A stretch of DNA of 33,798 nucleotides from assembly GCA_024276705.1 (NCBI GenBank), contig JAJRWS010000266.1, forward strand, positions 1 through 33,798, given 5' to 3'. The notes beneath the pieces are model-generated. The model did not search any database and had not been told where the DNA came from. It saw nothing but the letters and a program-made list of their open reading frames with translations. Below are positions 2,855 through 22,593 of this stretch, one piece after another. Source of the stretch: Planctomycetota bacterium (GTDB lineage: Bacteria; Planctomycetota; Planctomycetia; Pirellulales; Lacipirellulaceae). The translations under genes and the position numbers were made by a program. Positions within the stretch are counted from its first letter, which is position 1. Each line of letters begins with the position of its first letter.

Positions 2855-3817
2855 ATGAAACAGACCGCACTTTGGCTCTTGACGGTATTGGCCGCCCTCG
2901 GTGGGCTTGTTTTGCCCACTTGGGCCGCGCCGCCAGTGACACTCGAAAGGGAACCGGCCTCAAGGGAGACTGTCAGCAACGAAACAACTGGCAGGCAGGC
3001 TCCCATGGGGGAGAAGTGGGTTCGGATCCAGCATGACAAACAGGGGGAACCGCTGGCGATGCAAACGGCCATTGTTCGTTACGTTCCCCGCGAGGTGGTC
3101 GAGGATCCCAGCAAAGATCCTTTGACGGTCGACCTGGTAGGGGCGGTTCATATTGGCGATCGGGCCTATTATCGAGAACTGAATCGACGCTTTCGGCAAT
3201 ACGATGCGTTGCTCTACGAATTGGTAGCTCCGGAAGGCACCTACGTGCCTCGAGGCCATGGCACCTCCAACTCCAATCCACTTGGAGCGATGCAGAATGC
3301 CATGAAAAATATGCTGGAAGTGGAGCACCAGTTAGAGCAGGTCGACTACACCCGGCCTAATTTTGTCCATGCCGATTTGTCGCCACAAGAATTCATGCAG
3401 TCGATGAAACGACGCGATGAAAGTTTCATGAAGATGTACTTTCGGATGCTGGGTCAGGCGCTTGCCCAGCAAAGCCAGCAATCGGTTCAGGGGGAATCGG
3501 CCGATCTGGACTTTTTTTCAGCCTTGTTTGCAAAGGATAGGGCTCGGCAATTGAAAATTGCCATGGCAAAACAGTTTGGCTCGATGGAAGCCTTCCTGGC
3601 AGGCATGTCTGGACCGGAAGGGTCGACCTTGATTACCGAGCGTAACAAGCGTGCTTTACAGGTACTGAGGCAGCAAATGGATGCTGGCAAACGCAAGCTG
3701 GCCATTTTCTACGGCGCTGGTCACTTGACTGACATGCAGCAGCAATTGATGGAACAATTTGATTTTGTGCCAGTAAAGACCACCTGGATTGATGCCTGGG
3801 ACTTAAGGGAGCAGTAA
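2855..3817 (+). CDS. Secreted TraB/GumN-like (PrgY/Tiki superfamily) protein
   Basis: A 320-residue protein with a signal peptide (MKQTALWLLTVLAALGGLVL, then LPTWAAP). The mature part has features of the TraB/GumN superfamily, whose members are putative metal-dependent proteases related to Tiki: a first histidine motif VDLVGAVHIGDRAYY, the acidic YDALLYELV, an ITERN motif, and a second histidine motif FYGAGHLTDM near the C-terminus. I chose ATG 2855 because it begins the signal peptide; an in-frame ATG at 2798 would add 19 residues of repeat-derived sequence. It stands alone between two repeat tracts, and the stop codon runs straight into the purine-rich repeat. The substrate is unknown. Confidence 0.75.
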   Translation: MKQTALWLLTVLAALGGLVLPTWAAPPVTLEREPASRETVSNETTGRQAPMGEKWVRIQHDKQGEPLAMQTAIVRYVPREVVEDPSKDPLTVDLVGAVHIGDRAYYRELNRRFRQYDALLYELVAPEGTYVPRGHGTSNSNPLGAMQNAMKNMLEVEHQLEQVDYTRPNFVHADLSPQEFMQSMKRRDESFMKMYFRMLGQALAQQSQQSVQGESADLDFFSALFAKDRARQLKIAMAKQFGSMEAFLAGMSGPEGSTLITERNKRALQVLRQQMDAGKRKLAIFYGAGHLTDMQQQLMEQFDFVPVKTTWIDAWDLREQ

Positions 3818-3908
3818 GAAAGTGGAGAGCGCAAGAGGGCGGGGTCGTTAAGAAAGCGGAAAGCGGAGAGCAGAGAGCAAAAAGCGGAGAGCGCAAGAGG
3901 GCGGGGTC
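3818..3908. repeat. Purine-rich dispersed repeat tract, copies 2-3
   Basis: Directly after the TraB-like stop codon, GGAGAGCGCAAGAGGGCGGGGTC occurs twice in slightly different forms around the exact 20-mer AGCGGAGAGCAGAGAGCAAA (3862-3881). The same block in reverse orientation lies downstream of trmB (about 6147-6230). No ORF here is credible. Confidence 0.7.
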
Positions 3909-3984
3909 TGGTCTAATTTTCGGTCCACCAGGCATCCAACCCGATGGACGCACAAGCCGAAAACTTAGACCTGACCCCTTCGTC
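3909..3984. repeat. REP-like palindromic element containing the 63-bp repeat, copy 2
   Basis: GGTCTAATTTTCGG at 3910-3923 pairs with CCGAAAACTTAGACC at about 3957-3971, one base unpaired, making a long hairpin whose loop contains the GGCATCCAACCCGATGG block. Positions 3920-3982 are identical to 2214-2276. This looks like the complete form of the element; the 2.2-kb copy lacks the left arm. Confidence 0.7.
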
Positions 3985-4051
3985 GAGGCGGGATCGGGGC
4001 CGCTATCGGGATCGGGATCGCTATCGGGATCGGGATCGGGATCGAAATAAC

Positions 4052-4252
4052 ATGGGTCTGAGACACGAAAAACTGGATGTTTACCGCCTCTCGATAAAGA
4101 AGTAAAGTCAACAACGAAAAACGGAATTGGACCGTGTTGTCGCTATGCTCAGTCGCTTAGGCGGCAGAGGCTACTCGGTCAAAGAAGATTCCGCTCCTTG
4201 TGCATTCGCGGAATTCGATAGCGATAGCGATCCCGAGTCCCGATCCCGATGA
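4052..4252 (+). pseudogene. Internally deleted four-helix-bundle gene, copy B
   Basis: ATG 4052 gives MGLRHEKLDVYRLSIKK and then TAA. The family C-terminus continues in another frame as KTELDRVVAMLSRLGGRGYS, followed by VKEDSAP and a tail of Asp/Ser/Pro/Arg. The first 46 bases after the start codon are identical to the inverted copy at 2389-2588, and both copies lack the same middle. The gene is flanked by simple repeats that are each other's reverse complement: GGATCGGGATCGCTATCGGG-type repeats at about 3990-4044 and CGATAGCGATCCCGAGTCCC at about 4225-4250. The remnant therefore sits in a long potential stem, as in 23S rRNA intervening sequences. Confidence 0.75.
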
Positions 4253-4508
4253 GCAAAAAAATGGTGCCTATGGCACGATCCAGGTAGCCCCTACATACAG
4301 AGCCAAGGTCAGGAGAACGGGGCCTGAAATTTCGGCTTCCTGCCAATTTTTCGGGTTCACCCCATTGCTGGCGGGCGGTATACTGCGAGGTTTCGGTGTT
4401 TAGGGCTCCAATAGCAGCGGGCGTTCCCTTTCGCCTGGCCACGTTGTCCAAACCGTAAACCGCCAAAACAAACTGTCGACCGTAGCCAAGAATACCAGGA
4501 GAATTCCC

Positions 4509-6233: not shown

Positions 6234-7469
6234 CTAGCAGCATCCGTCTGTGCCACAGCAGTTGTCCCCTGGCAACTGGGTGGTGTGGTAGCCAACACCT
6301 TTCGTTTCGCGCGGGTCACGCAGCAGGTTGCGGCGGCAGTCGAAATCAGCAGCCTGCTCCTTGGGCACGGCTTCTCGGGGGGGTACCGACGTGATGTGCG
6401 ATGCATACGGGTCGCGGCCGTAGATTTCATACGTTTTGCCACATACGGCTGTCCGTTCGCCCCGCACAAGCGTATGGCCGTCGTCGTCAAGAACTTGCTT
6501 CCAAGGACCTTGATAGATGACTGCCTGCTTCTGATCGAGACAAGGGCCTTCCTTGCCTTTGTAGGCACGCACCGTAATACTGCGAAATTCGATTCCTTCG
6601 ACGGTAGCCCAGGCTGCCTCTTGCCGGGCAACAATTTCCACGCCATAGAATCCCGCGTTTGTAAAGGCTTCGAGGAAATCAGGTTCTACGAATGCGCCAC
6701 TGATGCATCCACTCCATAATTGTGGGTCATCCTGGAGATGCTGGGGCACGGGCTCATCGCATACGATGTCGCTAATGACGGCCCTTCCTCCACGCTTCAG
6801 AACCCGGTGTAGTTCGCGAAACAACTTTTGGCGGTCGTCCGGTCCGACCAGATTCAGCACGCAGTTGGAAACCACCACGTCGATCGAGTCGTCGGGTATC
6901 ATGGGAGACGTTTCACGGAGCCCTTCGGCATGGGCTTCAGCTCGCAGCCAATCGCTGCTGGAAGTGACCGGATTTTGAGCCAGGTAGGCCTCGAACGCCT
7001 CCAGGTCCAGAGCCAGATCCTGGATGCTTCCTTTACGGAATTCCGTGTTCTGGTAACCAAACCGTTCGGCCATGGGTTGCTGGTATTTGCGGGCCAGAGC
7101 CAGCATCTGGTCGTTGCGGTCGACACCCATGACATGGCCTTCAGACCCCACGATCTGCGCCGCGATGTAACAAATCTTGCCTCCTCCACTACCCAGGTCA
7201 AGTACGTGTTCACCAGGAAACACATGTTTTGAAGGATCGCCGCAGCCGTAGTCACGTTGGATGATTTCCTCCGGGATGGCCGCCAGATATTCCGGGTTGT
7301 AGTCGACCGGGCAGCATAAGGCCGGTTCGGCTTCCTGGGCTGCCGTTTCGTACCGTCTGCGGACGGCCTGCTCGACATCCAGGGGTGACTGGGTCTGATG
7401 CTCCAGATCGGTTTCGTGCCGATGGTTGCCGTTCTCGGATTTGAACGTCTGGGAAGATAAATCAATCAT
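6234..7469 (-). CDS. arsM: ArsM-like arsenite S-adenosylmethionine methyltransferase
   Basis: A 411-residue class I methyltransferase. The SAM site is HVLDLGSGGGKICYIAA (88-104). The three cysteines that bind As(III) in characterised ArsM/AS3MT enzymes have counterparts: Cys76 in RDYGCGDPS, Cys203 in VVSNCVLNL and Cys255 in WSGCISGAF. Substrate is therefore probably trivalent arsenic, methylated for volatilisation or detoxification. A C-terminal extension of about 110 residues ends in CCGTDGCC (404-411), a likely metal or metalloid site. I start at ATG 7469 (MIDLSSQ); the frame is open to 7559, but that extension is not family-like. No arsR or arsenic transporter is adjacent. A related methyltransferase with another substrate is possible. 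Confidence 0.75.
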   Translation of the reverse strand: MIDLSSQTFKSENGNHRHETDLEHQTQSPLDVEQAVRRRYETAAQEAEPALCCPVDYNPEYLAAIPEEIIQRDYGCGDPSKHVFPGEHVLDLGSGGGKICYIAAQIVGSEGHVMGVDRNDQMLALARKYQQPMAERFGYQNTEFRKGSIQDLALDLEAFEAYLAQNPVTSSSDWLRAEAHAEGLRETSPMIPDDSIDVVVSNCVLNLVGPDDRQKLFRELHRVLKRGGRAVISDIVCDEPVPQHLQDDPQLWSGCISGAFVEPDFLEAFTNAGFYGVEIVARQEAAWATVEGIEFRSITVRAYKGKEGPCLDQKQAVIYQGPWKQVLDDDGHTLVRGERTAVCGKTYEIYGRDPYASHITSVPPREAVPKEQAADFDCRRNLLRDPRETKGVGYHTTQLPGDNCCGTDGCC

Positions 7470-7686
7470 TTCGTGGGACACGCCGGGTTGCCTCCGTGGG
7501 GATCCATTCGAAGAAAATTCAGTCGACCTGCAATTCGGGTGCGCAGGGTGCCTGGTCAATCTACGGATTCTAATCCTTCCGGGCCAGTAAGTCTGTGTGC
7601 CTTTTCACATCCTTGCTTGCAGGGGCGACTTTCTTGGCGGGGTGGCGCCGATTGGGTCGACAGGCACGCCACAAAGCTTAGAATGA

Positions 7687-9030
<1,344 letters not shown>

Positions 9031-15356: not shown

Positions 15357-17036
15357 ATGGCCAAGCAATATATTTATCAGATTTCCGGACTGACCAAGAA
15401 GATCGGGCAGCGAGAGATTCTCAGCAATATCCATCTGGCCTTTTATCCGGGGGCGAAGATTGGCGTGCTGGGACGCAATGGGTCGGGGAAGAGTACGCTG
15501 CTGCGGATCATGGCAGGGATCGATCGAGAATTCGACGGCGAGGCGCGGCTGACCGACGGTTTTACCGTGGGACTATTGCAACAGGAGCCCCAACTGAATT
15601 CGCAAAAAGACGTTTTTGGTAATGTCGAGGAAGCGGTTGCCTCCACCCGCGGGTTACTCCAGGAATTTGAACAGATGGGCGAACTCTATGCGGATGTCGC
15701 GGACGACGCGGCGGCGATGGAAAAGCTGATGAATCGCCAGGCGGCGTTACAAGACAAGATCGATGTTCTGGGAGCCTGGGAGCTGGACCGGCAGGTGGAG
15801 ATCGCCATGAGTGCAATGAACTTGCCGCCAGGCGACGCCGAAGTGTCCCGACTTTCCGGTGGTGAACAGCGAAGGGTTGCATTGTGCAAAATTTTGCTCC
15901 AGCGGCCCGACCTCCTGCTGTTGGACGAGCCTACGAATCATTTGGATGCTGAAAGTGTTGCCTGGCTGGAAAGGCATCTGGCTGAGTACCCGGGGACCAT
16001 TGTTGCGGTCACGCACGATCGCTATTTCCTGGACAACGTGGCAGGCTGGATTCTGGAACTGGATCGTGGGCAGGGCATTCCGTGGCAAGGGAACTATACC
16101 TCTTGGCTCCAGCAAAAGCAGACTCGTTTGCAGCAAGAGGAAAAAAAATCTTCCGCCCGGCAGCGGACCCTGGCACGCGAATTGGAGTGGGTTCGTATGG
16201 CTCCCAAAGCGCGACAGGCGAAAAATAAAGCCCGTATCAAGGCCTACGATTCGTTGGTTGCCGAAGAATTTGAAAACCGGCCGGAAGAGTTAGAAATCCA
16301 GATTCCACCCGGTCCCCGGCTGGGTGATCTTGTGATCCAGGCCAGTAATCTCTCAAAGGCCTATGGCGATTGCCTGCTCCTGGATAAGGTGAATTTTCGT
16401 TTGCCAGCCGGTGGCATTGTGGGGATCATTGGGCCAAATGGGGCTGGTAAAACCACTCTGTTACGGATGCTGATGGGGCAGGAGGAACCTGACCATGGCA
16501 CATTGGAGTTGGGCCCCACGGTTTGCCTCGGTTATGTTGACCAAAGTCGTGACGGCCTTCAGGACGATAAGAGTGTGTATGACGAAATCTCCGGCGGGCA
16601 TGAAACGTTGGAGATGGGGGGACGCAAAATGAATGCCCGGGCCTATGTCGCGCGGTTTAATTTCCAGGGTCCCGATCAGCAGAAAAAGGTCGGTGTGCTC
16701 TCAGGCGGTGAGCGAAATCGGGTGCACCTGGCCAAATTGTTGCGACGTGGTTCCAATGTGTTGCTCTTGGATGAGCCGACCAACGACCTGGATGTTGATA
16801 CATTGCGGGCTCTGGAGGAAGCGATTGCCAATTTTGTCGGCTGCGCGGTGGTGGTCAGTCATGATCGATGGCTGCTCGACCGCCTGGCTACTCATATCCT
16901 GGCTTTTGAAGGCGACGGATATGTTCACTGGTGCGAAGGGAACTTCGATACCTACCAACGCGAACGCCGGCAACGGCTGGGTGAGGATGCTGACACGCCG
17001 GTACGATTTCGTTATAAAAGGTTGCAACAGCATTAG
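15357..17036 (+). CDS. ettA: ABC-F ATPase EttA (energy-dependent translational throttle)
   Basis: A 559-residue cytosolic ABC-F protein with two nucleotide-binding domains and no membrane domain. NBD1: GRNGSGKST, signature LSGGEQRRVALCKILLQRPD, Walker B LLLLDEPTNHLD. Linker (about 240-320) rich in Arg/Gln/Lys: the P-site-tRNA interaction motif. NBD2: GPNGAGKTT, LSGGERNRVHLAKLL, VLLLDEPTNDLDVDTL. Length and the start MAKQYIYQISGLTKKIGQRE fit EttA (about 555 aa), which binds the ribosomal E site and tunes the first elongation step to the ATP/ADP ratio. The final TAG is part of the inverted repeat at 17032. Confidence 0.9.
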   Translation: MAKQYIYQISGLTKKIGQREILSNIHLAFYPGAKIGVLGRNGSGKSTLLRIMAGIDREFDGEARLTDGFTVGLLQQEPQLNSQKDVFGNVEEAVASTRGLLQEFEQMGELYADVADDAAAMEKLMNRQAALQDKIDVLGAWELDRQVEIAMSAMNLPPGDAEVSRLSGGEQRRVALCKILLQRPDLLLLDEPTNHLDAESVAWLERHLAEYPGTIVAVTHDRYFLDNVAGWILELDRGQGIPWQGNYTSWLQQKQTRLQQEEKKSSARQRTLARELEWVRMAPKARQAKNKARIKAYDSLVAEEFENRPEELEIQIPPGPRLGDLVIQASNLSKAYGDCLLLDKVNFRLPAGGIVGIIGPNGAGKTTLLRMLMGQEEPDHGTLELGPTVCLGYVDQSRDGLQDDKSVYDEISGGHETLEMGGRKMNARAYVARFNFQGPDQQKKVGVLSGGERNRVHLAKLLRRGSNVLLLDEPTNDLDVDTLRALEEAIANFVGCAVVVSHDRWLLDRLATHILAFEGDGYVHWCEGNFDTYQRERRQRLGEDADTPVRFRYKRLQQH

Positions 17037-17148
17037 AACGTGTTTTAAAATCCAGAAAGCTCACCTGCGAAGCGGCTCTTTTTCCCCTCGGTGCGCTTGC
17101 GGGAGGGGGTTCAGGTTAGGGCATTTGGATTTTAAAACACGTTCTAAT
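17032..17148. mobile_element. MITE-like palindromic element with perfect 23-bp inverted repeats
   Basis: The arms at 17032-17054 and 17126-17148 are perfect reverse complements; the left begins ATTAGAACGTGTTTTAAAAT. They enclose 71 bases with a GCGCTTGCGGGAGGGGG block. No ORF is inside. The left arm supplies the TAG stop of ettA and the right arm ends 32 bases before the H1-like start. Size (117 bp), symmetry and absence of a gene suit a miniature inverted-repeat element or large REP. In RNA it would form a strong hairpin and may terminate or stabilise ettA mRNA. No clear target-site duplication is visible. Confidence 0.65.
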
Positions 17149-17179
17149 TGTCATTTTCATCCGGATGGAGTTTACTAAA

Positions 17180-17488
17180 ATGTCGATCGTACGCGTTGGA
17201 GCCACGGAGCAGTATTCCGAAAATTGGGATACCATCTTTACCAAGGGTAAAAAGAAAACGTCGAGCAAAAGCAAGCAGGCAGTAAAAAAGAAGCCACGGC
17301 CTAAACAGTCGCTGAAGAAAAAGCCCGCGCCGAAAAAGAAATCTGCGGGGAGGAAGACCAAGGCCCCATTGACGAAGGGGCGAAAATCGGCCAAAAAATC
17401 GCCAAAAAAGAAGACGGTGGCCAAGAAGACGAATACCAAGAAGACGAAGGCCAGGAAGAACGCTAAGAAGAAATCCAGCAGGAAATAA
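17180..17488 (+). CDS. Lysine-rich histone-H1-like protein
   Basis: A 102-residue very basic protein. The first about 27 residues (MSIVRVGATEQYSENWDTIF) are of ordinary composition and look like a short conserved head. The rest is almost wholly Lys, Ala, Pro, Thr, Ser and Arg in KKxxPKK, KKTxxKK and AKK patterns, like the tail of eukaryotic H1 and of bacterial H1-like nucleoid proteins. DNA binding and nucleoid compaction are therefore plausible. GGAG at 17167-17170 is 9 bases before ATG 17180; an in-frame ATG at 17165 overlaps that site, so I prefer 17180. Its head resembles a planctomycete conserved protein, from memory. Confidence 0.75.
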   Translation: MSIVRVGATEQYSENWDTIFTKGKKKTSSKSKQAVKKKPRPKQSLKKKPAPKKKSAGRKTKAPLTKGRKSAKKSPKKKTVAKKTNTKKTKARKNAKKKSSRK

Positions 17489-17576: not shown

Positions 17577-17600
17577 CTCACTTTATAAACCAGGAGTAGG

Positions 17601-17828
17601 ATGATGAAGGTCCGCATAGAATACTGCTCGTTGTGAAATTACGAACCCCAGGCGGTCAGTTTGGCGGCCAAATTATTAGTGGAATTCAAGCAAAAGATTG
17701 CCGGTTTGGAACTCGTCCCATCCGGCGGAGGTTGTTTTGAAATCGACGTGGATGGGAAGCGTATTTATTCCAAGCTCGAAACCGATTCCTTCCCTGACGA
17801 GGAAGAAATCTTGAAGCGGCTCGGTTGA
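17601..17828 (+). CDS. Rdx-family (SelW/SelT/SelH-type) selenoprotein with in-frame TGA
   Basis: A 75-residue thioredoxin-fold protein read through an in-frame TGA (17634-17636) as selenocysteine, giving EYCSLUNYEPQA: a CxxU redox motif near the N-terminus, exactly where Rdx proteins have CxxC or CxxU. Codons after the TGA stay in frame and carry other family marks: LAAKLLVEFKQKI, LELVPSGGGCFEI (the ELxPGxGGxFE-type strand), VDGKRIYSKLETDSFP (family: IxSKxETGRFP) and EEEILKRLG. AGGAG at 17592-17596 precedes ATG 17601 by 4 bases and ATG 17604 by 7, so 17604 may be the true start. The downstream stop TGA is 17826-17828. Substrate unknown. Ordinary ORF calling misses this gene. Confidence 0.85.
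17634..17674 (+). promoter_or_regulatory. Candidate bacterial SECIS hairpin after the UGA
   Basis: After the UGA, AGUUUGG (17658-17664) can pair with CCAAAUU (17668-17674), including one G-U, leaving the 3-nt loop CGG. The loop begins 28 bases after the UGA and has G residues, within the loose spacing and loop-G rule for bacterial SECIS elements. The stem is short and was found by eye; a folding program might prefer another structure. Confidence 0.35.
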
Positions 17829-17834
17829 TGGTAA

Positions 17835-18398
17835 TCACGCTCGCGACAGATACTCGCCCGTGCGGGTATCGATTTTGATCGTTTCGCCTTCTTTCAAGTA
17901 TTCGGGAACCTGGACGATCAGGCCCGTCTCGAGCGTTGCCGGTTTGTTGCGAGACGTGGCCGAGTTGCCTTTGATGCCGGGATCGCAGCCGGTAACCTTC
18001 AGTTCCACCGTGGTGGGCAGTTGCAAACCGACGCAGCCACCGTTGTAGATTAGAGCCAGCAGGCCTTGGAGATCTTCGGTGATGTATTGCATTTCGTGTG
18101 ACACATCGCCCATGGTAAGCGAGTATTGATTGTAGTCTTGCTGGTCCAGAAAATGGACCTGGTCTCCGTCCGTGTACATCAGGGTAACTTCGCGGCGTTC
18201 AAAATCGGCTTCCTCCAGATTATCAGTGCCTTTGCAGGAAAAGTCGGTTTTTTGCCGCGTTACCAGATTGCGGGCTCGGAATTTGTACAGCGTAGCTCCA
18301 CCTCGAGCGGAGGGAGTCTGCACGGAGATGGACTCGACGATCAGGGGGGCGTTTTTTTGTTTTAGGATTGCGCCTGTTTTAATGTCTTTTGCGAGCAT
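17835..18398 (-). CDS. efpL: Elongation factor P-like protein EfpL (YeiP)
   Basis: A 187-residue paralogue of EF-P with the three-domain layout of YeiP/EfpL. The domain I tip is SVQTPSARGGATLYKFRARN, with Arg32 where EfpL has Arg and many EF-Ps have a modified Lys. Domain III has GIKGNSATSRNKPATLETGL and IVQVPEYLKEGETIKIDTRTGEYLSRA, nearly the YeiP consensus. EfpL relieves ribosome stalling at prolines and other motifs. The gene converges on the selenoprotein gene with 6 bases between their stop codons. Confidence 0.88.
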   Translation of the reverse strand: MLAKDIKTGAILKQKNAPLIVESISVQTPSARGGATLYKFRARNLVTRQKTDFSCKGTDNLEEADFERREVTLMYTDGDQVHFLDQQDYNQYSLTMGDVSHEMQYITEDLQGLLALIYNGGCVGLQLPTTVELKVTGCDPGIKGNSATSRNKPATLETGLIVQVPEYLKEGETIKIDTRTGEYLSRA

Positions 18399-18442: not shown

Positions 18443-18477
18443 GTAGCCGTTCGTGGCCAGAGGTAGCGAACGGCTAC
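18443..18477. repeat. REP-like hairpin with 11-bp perfect stem at a gene end
   Basis: GTAGCCGTTCG (18443-18453) pairs with CGAACGGCTAC (18467-18477) over a 13-base loop. The TAG stop of the 177-aa gene (minus strand, 18474-18476) lies inside the right arm. It is between that gene and efpL on the same strand and could modulate read-through. It resembles REP-type palindromes. Confidence 0.7.
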
Positions 18478-19007
18478 AGGACTTCTCCGGAGGCGGGGTC
18501 GAAGGTTAGGCCCTCCGTGAGTGTTGCCAACGCATCAACAACGGTCAACAGGCAGGTGGGATCGAGCATATCCAGGGGGCCGTCGTCATCGGGGAAATCC
18601 TCTTTGAGAGAGAATGCATCGCCGCCGCCAAAAGGGGCTGCCGTGGAGTTCCCGCCAGTTTTGCGTTCAAAGTGGGCTACGTCGAGTCGAGCATTGGCGA
18701 TCATGAGTTGCTGCAACTGTTCGGCGGGCAGTTGGCTTTGCAATTCTTTCGCCCATTCCAGATTCTGTTCGACCACCGCGGCGCCCGTTTCATAGCTCAC
18801 TTCAACCGCGGCGTGGTCTTCTTGAGATTCCACCAGGAGCGAGGCGAAGAGGCCGTCGTCATCGGCGGCCAGATTCTCCAGTTGAAGCCGGCCACCCGCT
18901 TTGAGCAACGCGTCCTCGACTTGAGAGAGTGTGGGACGTCGAGTGTGAGGAAACAGGATAAAGTAGGTTTCTCGCCAGAGTAATTCGTCGGATTTGCTGC
19001 TGGACAT
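18474..19007 (-). CDS. Conserved-looking hypothetical protein, 177 aa
   Basis: I do not recognise this protein. It has no signal peptide or membrane segment and is acidic. It starts MSSSKSDELLWRETYFILFP and has an alpha/beta look (SQVEDALLKAGGRLQLENLA, LFASLLVESQEDHAAVEVSY), a helical middle (NLEWAKELQSQLPAEQLQQL), a Gly/Asp-rich stretch and a hydrophobic end (LLTVVDALATLTEGL). AAGGAG on the coding strand 6-7 bases before the ATG is a strong ribosome-binding site. It follows the 79-aa gene by 21 bases, so it is probably in an operon with it and proC. The stop codon lies in a REP-like hairpin. Confidence 0.7.
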   Translation of the reverse strand: MSSSKSDELLWRETYFILFPHTRRPTLSQVEDALLKAGGRLQLENLAADDDGLFASLLVESQEDHAAVEVSYETGAAVVEQNLEWAKELQSQLPAEQLQQLMIANARLDVAHFERKTGGNSTAAPFGGGDAFSLKEDFPDDDGPLDMLDPTCLLTVVDALATLTEGLTFDPASGEVL

Positions 19008-21321: not shown

Positions 21322-22593
21322 ATGCCCAAGCCCAACTCGCCCCTATCCAAGCTGCCATCGATTCATGAGCTGATCAGGCACCCACAGGTGCAGACCGTGG
21401 TGAATCGCATCAATCACTCGACTCTCGCGGAACGAGCCGCTCAATTTTTAGAAGAGCTGCAATCGTATCTACGCCGGCGTGCCGAACAGACGCCGAATAT
21501 TCAACAAATCGCCGAGCGTTTTGCCCGCCATTTGTTGGGACATGGTGATACGGGAGCTCTGGTAATGAATGCAACGGGGGTGGTGATTGGGGCGGAATTT
21601 GTGGTGCCGCCCTTAGCGGAAGCCGCAGTCCAGGAAATCGTTCGTTTAGCGAGTGAGTATCACCTTGCTCCCAGTCAGTATCAGGTATGGCCGAATGGGG
21701 CCGAGCAAAATGGTATTGGACAAAATGGTGCCGGGTCGGCGCAAGTTGGTATGGAGTGGGCGAAGCAGTTGGACCAGTTGCTGCAGGAATGCACAGGTGC
21801 TGAATCGGCATGGGTCGCCTCCAGTACGGCCAGTGCTCAATTGTTGATTCAAATGGCCTTGGGGGATACATGCGAAGTGCTGTTGGCGGGGCCCGCGGGG
21901 CTTGTCGACTCGGCAACCTTGGGACTGGCAGGCATTGCACCGATTTCAACACGACTGGCAGGGGAAAATAGGATCGTGCTGGTCGAGGGAACCGGCATGC
22001 TAGGAGGCCCTGCTTGTGGTATTATTCTGGGGCAGCGAAAGCGGGTCGATAAGTTGCGCCACCACGCTGCGGCACCCATGTTGGCTGCCAATTCACTAAC
22101 CTGTGCCGCGCTACGGGCGACGCTCAATCTTTACCGAACGGAACAGCTTCCTGTACACCAGATTCCCATTCTGCAATTGCTGTCAGCACCGTTGGATAAT
22201 TTACGTCAGCGCGCTGAGCGTTTAGCGCCACTCATGCAAGAATGCGCTGCCGTTGCGGAAGCCGAGTCGGTCGAGGGAGATTCCCCCTGGTGCCAAATGG
22301 GGCCGGAGGATGAGCCAGCCAGTGGTGCCTCGCTGCCAGCCAGTGGTGCCTCGCTGTCGGCCAGTGGTGCCTCGCTGTCGGCCAGTGTTTCCTCGCTGTC
22401 GGCACCTACCTGCTCCATTGCGTTGCGGCCAGCGGCGGAAGGCCCAGAGGCAGCCAGATGCTTACTGCGTAGCCTTCGAAGCGGCCAACGTCCCGTTCTG
22501 GCCCGTTTGGCCAATGAGCGAGTCATGCTTGACATGCGTTCGGTTTTTCCACGATGGGACCAGGCATTGGTCGCCGCAGTGGAACAAGCTTAG
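21322..22593 (+). CDS. SelA-like protein lacking the PLP lysine and part of the PLP core
   Basis: A 423-residue relative of L-seryl-tRNA(Sec) selenium transferase. The N-terminal domain fits SelA (LSKLPSIHELIRHPQVQTVV, AERAAQFLEELQSYLRRRA), as do VMNATGVVIGAEFVVPPLAE (SelA: INLTGTVLHTNLGRAxL), LLQECTGAESAWVASSTASAQLL, and MLGGPACGIILGQRK with LTCAALRATLNLYRT. Where SelA has SGDKLLGGP, this has EGTGMLGGP (222-230), so Gly225 replaces the PLP-binding Lys. About 85-90 residues of the PLP domain are also missing before that point. A 21-bp repeat adds a Ser/Ala-rich insert at 332-359. The ORF is intact, so a non-catalytic role or early decay are both possible. Confidence 0.7.
   Translation: MPKPNSPLSKLPSIHELIRHPQVQTVVNRINHSTLAERAAQFLEELQSYLRRRAEQTPNIQQIAERFARHLLGHGDTGALVMNATGVVIGAEFVVPPLAEAAVQEIVRLASEYHLAPSQYQVWPNGAEQNGIGQNGAGSAQVGMEWAKQLDQLLQECTGAESAWVASSTASAQLLIQMALGDTCEVLLAGPAGLVDSATLGLAGIAPISTRLAGENRIVLVEGTGMLGGPACGIILGQRKRVDKLRHHAAAPMLAANSLTCAALRATLNLYRTEQLPVHQIPILQLLSAPLDNLRQRAERLAPLMQECAAVAEAESVEGDSPWCQMGPEDEPASGASLPASGASLSASGASLSASVSSLSAPTCSIALRPAAEGPEAARCLLRSLRSGQRPVLARLANERVMLDMRSVFPRWDQALVAAVEQA
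22315..22398 (+). repeat. 21-bp tandem repeat in the SelA-like gene
   Basis: Four 21-base units (22315, 22336, 22357, 22378) sharing GCCAGTGGTGCCTCGCTG; the third and fourth begin TCG instead of CCA and the fourth has two more changes. They encode PASGASL, PASGASL, SASGASL, SASVSSL. The length keeps the frame. Absent from normal SelA proteins. Confidence 0.95.

Follow-up and report, generated by a model that had tools for sequence, protein, structure and literature searches.

A putative selW-like selenoprotein gene with an in-frame UGA codon in a member of the Lacipirellulaceae

Positions 17604-17828 on the forward strand of the window, that is, of the whole 33,798-nucleotide stretch analyzed here, very probably constitute a functional selW-like (Rdx family) selenoprotein gene of 74 codons, including one UGA that would be read as selenocysteine (Sec), plus the stop TGA. 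The proposal of a true selenoprotein, made in the original prediction, is backed by the presence of selC, selA and selB in the genome, by the conservation of the UGA in relatives and by a covarying SECIS element. It is plausible that the gene was overlooked by standard gene finders, which are based on stop codons; it is a clean and checkable example, and its order holds about 65 relatives built in this way.

Reading frame, product and family

Regarding its reading frame, the gene opens at ATG 17601 or 17604 (+), meets an in-frame TGA at 17634-17636 and runs to the next in-frame stop, TGA 17826-17828; an AGGAG ribosome-binding site, read directly at 17592-17596 (+), lies 7 nt 5' of ATG 17604. 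All these elements had been listed in the original prediction and are present on direct reading. The codon at position -10 from the U is ATG in 56 of the 66 aligned copies, so 17604 is the likelier start and 17601 the alternative. Translation from ATG 17601 with TGA as U gives MMKVRIEYCSLUNYEPQAVSLAAKLLVEFKQKIAGLELVPSGGGCFEIDVDGKRIYSKLETDSFPDEEEILKRLG; counted from ATG 17604, the redox pair of the 74-residue product is C8-x-x-U11. This CxxU motif (C-S-L-U) is encoded at 17625-17636 (+), with its Cys and TGA invariant in 66/66 copies, and U11 occupies, at the same codon as in the relatives, the second redox position of the CxxC/CxxU pair to which the TGA had been assigned.

As for the family, the claim that the translation matches Rdx on both sides of the TGA was borne out by a translated search, which placed the product in Rdx/SelW above curated cut-offs; with Cys substituted for Sec in scoring, it reached 75.9 bits with PF10262 Rdx (cut-off 22.6), 70.2 bits with TIGR02174 (cut-off 34.2) and, as a narrow pass, 89 with NF041051 (cut-off 88). 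When the whole assembly was searched in six frames, the gene was the only TIGR02174 match (E=4.9e-17), with one TGA inside. The AlphaFold model, also computed with Cys for Sec, had a pLDDT of 93 and a pTM of 0.80, and its order of elements is E-H-E-E-E-H-H, with CxxU between strand 1 and helix 1 of a thioredoxin-like fold. It superposed on the crystal structures of SelW-family proteins from Agrobacterium, Pseudomonas, Vibrio, Streptomyces and Bordetella with TM values of 0.88-0.94 at about 1.0 Å (0.92 and 1.0 Å for 2fa8). The fold is thus shared, at TM about 0.9 and 30-36% identity, with Agrobacterium Atu0228 (2fa8), Vibrio 2p0g and Pseudomonas 2obk/2oka; Atu0228, however, has Cys (CTQC in the alignment) where the window gene has UGA, and it is nearer to the Cys paralogues of the family (CxxCRWLLRAAWMAQELL) than to the NYEPQAVSLAA type. 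Mouse selenoprotein W (2npb) belongs to the Rdx family too (sequence match E=3.4e-6; Foldseek TM 0.72), with the difference that the SECIS of eukaryotes is located in the 3' UTR (PMC1088965), whereas the hairpin of the window gene is within the coding sequence. A CxxU pair in a SelW fold implies thiol/selenol redox chemistry, and the product is most likely a small redox protein that would cycle through a Cys-Sec selenenylsulphide.

The statement that the Rdx family often uses Sec agrees with the literature, where it is among the commonest known bacterial selenoproteins: SelW-like CxxU proteins rank first in abundance among the selenoprotein families both of the Sargasso Sea, with 48 genes (PMC1088965), and of the GOS marine metagenomes, with 427 Sec against 56 Cys forms (PMC2398784); Sec-using bacteria have few known Cys forms (PMC1794560). 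Planctomycetes with the full Sec machinery and selenoprotein genes have been described as well, namely the Porphyra isolates P1 and P2, in a paper whose main text is without SelW (PMC4807772). Given the abundance of SelW-like proteins and these published Sec-using planctomycetes, the window gene is an addition to an already well-known family. It shares with the bacterial SelW-like selenoproteins the CxxU pair, the small thioredoxin-like Rdx protein and a bacterial SECIS (bSECIS) right after the UGA, and nothing fundamental differs; its planctomycete lineage is marked by a strongly constrained CAGUYUG loop and by a recurrent EttA/EfpL neighbourhood.

The UGA codon and the downstream hairpin

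The UGA at 17634-17636 (+) is assigned to Sec, the genome having tRNA-Sec, selA and selB, and every relative carries TGA at that codon. In the GTDB family, an Rdx copy with an internal TGA occurs in 8 of 44 genomes, and the order-wide search of 397 genomes returned 66 TGA-containing copies, window gene included, all with CxxU[N/G/D][Y/F] and the TGA at the same codon. Likewise, the 80/80 nearest relatives (one genome scanned per GTDB species) carry TGA, and not TGC/TGT, at the Sec codon; the 66-copy and 80-relative sets partly overlap, as some contigs are in both, and they are not fully independent. These 80 relatives are mostly metagenome assemblies of Planctomycetota and Verrucomicrobiota, with a few others, and include the strain Aquisphaera insulae JC669. 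An unrelated sequence after the TGA in close relatives had been named as the result to look for against the prediction; the check was run, and the sequence found there is related. Since homology extends to either side of the TGA, and since 65 other copies and the 80/80 relatives have TGA at this codon, a chance origin of the frame is, by sequence comparison, excluded. The search of plasmids returned distant copies only, with less than 60% identity. The possibility that the Cys copies of the family are orthologues was rejected, since they form a distinct CRWLLRAAWMAQELL subfamily, and one genome (G033) carries both types.

Downstream of the UGA, and inside the coding sequence, the MFE structure and covariation define a candidate bSECIS hairpin, GGC.GUCA(GUU)UGGC.GCC, at 17651-17669 (+), with the apical loop GUU at 17659-17661; it starts 14 nt after the UGA, and its loop, GU first, 23 nt after. 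The accepted UGA-to-loop range is 16-37 nt, and in E. coli fdhF the loop GU is one codon nearer to the UGA than these 23 nt. The criterion published for bSECIS elements is that the apical loop be small and contain a conserved G (PMC1088965). In the window sequence alone the hairpin is not significant, as 26% of the synonymous nulls fold equally well and single-sequence folding gave z from -0.1 to -0.6 (z=-0.6 with dinucleotide shuffling); moreover, G21/G33 is mismatched. The Rfam scan of the hairpin region returned nothing credible.

The comparison among relatives gave a different picture, to be read with the caution that the pooled hairpin and covariation statistics ignore kinship and that relatedness inflates the pooled hairpin values: over 66 sequences, the mean hairpin energy had z=-7.3 against synonymous-codon nulls, and the loop-closing pairs 24-30 and 25-29 were found in 54/66 MFE folds, versus about 3/66 in the nulls. 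The Ser codon of the loop (position +8) reads AGT in 62 of 64 sequences, versus an 18% AGT usage in the genes of the genome (binomial P about 1e-43). In the 43 aligned sequences, the covariation score was 0.250 versus 0.131 when shuffled (0/500), it dropped to 0.149 or less when the partner was slid by 1-3 columns, and changes on both sides occurred in the pairs 21-33, 23-31 and 24-30. Taken at the sequence level, the element appears as a conserved bacterial SECIS with compensatory changes and extreme synonymous constraint across relatives, and it lends itself readily to testing what a SECIS requires outside Proteobacteria.

The proposed decoding would proceed as follows: the ribosome would start at ATG 17604 and arrive at UGA 17634; SelA would make Sec on tRNA(Sec), encoded by selC, from selenophosphate; and SelB-GTP with Sec-tRNA(Sec) would bind the SECIS hairpin through its GU apical loop. 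Selenocysteine would then be delivered at the UGA, and translation would continue to TGA 17826, with a 74-residue thioredoxin-like Rdx protein bearing the Cys-x-x-Sec pair as the expected product.

Selenocysteine machinery and alternative readings

The search for selB, selC and selD suggested with the original prediction succeeded for the first two and not for the third. A tRNA-Sec with anticodon TCA maps at 654-748 of contig C359 (63.3 bits versus a gathering threshold of 47, with ARAGORN in agreement), and the same contig carries selA at 3003-4451 (491.7 bits, cut-off 267.9), beyond the genes asked for, and selB at 6910-8829 (322 bits, cut-off 242.25). These genes sit on a contig other than that of the window gene, in a metagenome-type bin with 2.9% contamination, so that they might in principle be binning strays. 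As for selD, it was not found in this assembly, which is 85% complete in 698 contigs; weak matches on contigs C444 and C589 were rejected since, judged by sequence and gene neighbours, they look like ThiL and HypE. It exceeds the cut-off in six of the seven family relatives with UGA-Rdx (G016, G017, G018, G019, G031 and G033), and the seventh, G013, has a selD fragment at a contig end; the gene is taken as unassembled in this genome. Regarding fdhA as a second selenoprotein gene, there was no match over the cut-off, and no TGA within the matches listed.

Among the 44 family genomes, selA occurs in 8/8 of those with UGA-Rdx versus 6/36 of the others (Fisher, 1.7e-5), and selA or selB in 8/8 versus 7/36 (3.6e-5), values that are only a rough guide because these genomes are related. 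The 15 genomes with only Cys forms of Rdx had selA in 0/15, a tRNA-Sec over 60 bits in 0/15 and selB in 1/15. As a separate observation, the SelD matches of nine genomes (L046-L054; G002, G010, G015, G017-G020, G022 and G033) lie within open frames of about 737-805 aa, and SelD is apparently fused to another domain there; the corresponding frames of G031 and G039 have 365-434 aa.

It is very improbable that the locus yields only a 10-residue peptide, or that translation restarts past the UGA: such a reading could draw on the failure to find selD, as the strain might not make Sec, but SelA, SelB and tRNA-Sec are intact, selD is over the cut-off in nearly all the family relatives with the gene, and a restart would lose two of the best conserved parts, strand 1 and the CxxU site. 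That a suppressor tRNA, or a general reassignment, makes the UGA code for Cys or Trp deserves hardly any credence; UGA is reassigned in some bacteria, and the paralogues do have Cys at the family position, but the gene and its close relatives terminate on TGA too, besides TAA and TAG, and the long genes of the window are normal under table 11. In addition, the genome encodes tRNA-Sec(UCA), SelA and SelB, the UGA form goes together with selA, and the hairpin after the UGA is conserved. Finally, a pseudogene or a sequencing error, with a Cys codon (TGC/TGT, one base away from TGA) mutated or misread in this fragmented assembly, has a negligible probability and is already refuted by the independent TGA-bearing assemblies, with the same-codon TGA in the other copies of the order and in the nearest relatives, the frame and family motifs intact on either side of it, and the downstream hairpin conserved at synonymous sites.

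Gene neighbourhood

The less expected features of the locus are the EttA-selW-EfpL neighbourhood and a SelA-like protein devoid of its lysine. Upstream of the putative selenoprotein gene, ettA, encoding the ABC-F energy-dependent translational throttle, occupies 15357-17036 (+; TIGR03719, 902 bits, over the cut-off) and is a recurrent neighbour; downstream, and convergent, the recurrent neighbour is an EF-P/EfpL-type elongation factor at 17835-18398 (-), with Pfam EF-P domains over the cut-off and 212.4 bits with NF003392 EfpL, just below the cut-off of 216. Further along, at 18474-19007 (-), orf18474 encodes a 177-residue protein with no Pfam match, and it is found beside 17/65 UGA-selW loci of the order. 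Within flanks of about 2 kb, and for loci that are related, EttA is near 21/65 and EF-P near 12/65 of these loci, and at least one among EttA, EF-P/EfpL and orf18474 flanks 26/65 of them versus 0/33 of the Cys-paralogue loci. This translation-linked neighbourhood of the Pirellulales (ettA, selW, EF-P/EfpL and orf18474) raises the idea, rather unlikely as it stands, that the CxxU protein might serve the redox control of a translation factor and not general thiol chemistry; drawn from gene order alone, it hints at where to seek a partner of bacterial SelW, as a lead and not as a demonstration.

The SelA-like protein is encoded at 21322-22593 (+), 3.5 kb downstream of the selW gene, and scores 131.8 bits with TIGR00474, below the cut-off of 267.9; it is without the lysine of the SGDK motif of SelA and has EGTG there. 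Most of the 44 family genomes, whether or not they have the Sec trait, contain SelA matches of this sub-cut-off kind, and all those aligned are without the lysine. Its role as a second Sec-synthesis gene was rejected, as the SGDK lysine is missing and the protein is present regardless of the Sec trait; judged from its residues, it is a conserved SelA-like pseudoenzyme.

Two further elements were noticed. At 17165-17488 (+), between ettA and the selW gene, there is a frame for a 107-residue Lys-rich protein of low complexity, like a histone H1 tail, with no match in Pfam or NCBIfam. The other, at 17035-17145, spans 111 bp and is bounded by perfect inverted ends of 20 bp, AGAACGTGTTTTAAAATCCA; the reversed-pattern control of these ends gave 0 matches in the genome, whereas the ends themselves had 16, allowing up to 2 mismatches, several of them paired 111 bp apart, and the element appears to represent a MITE-like repeat family.
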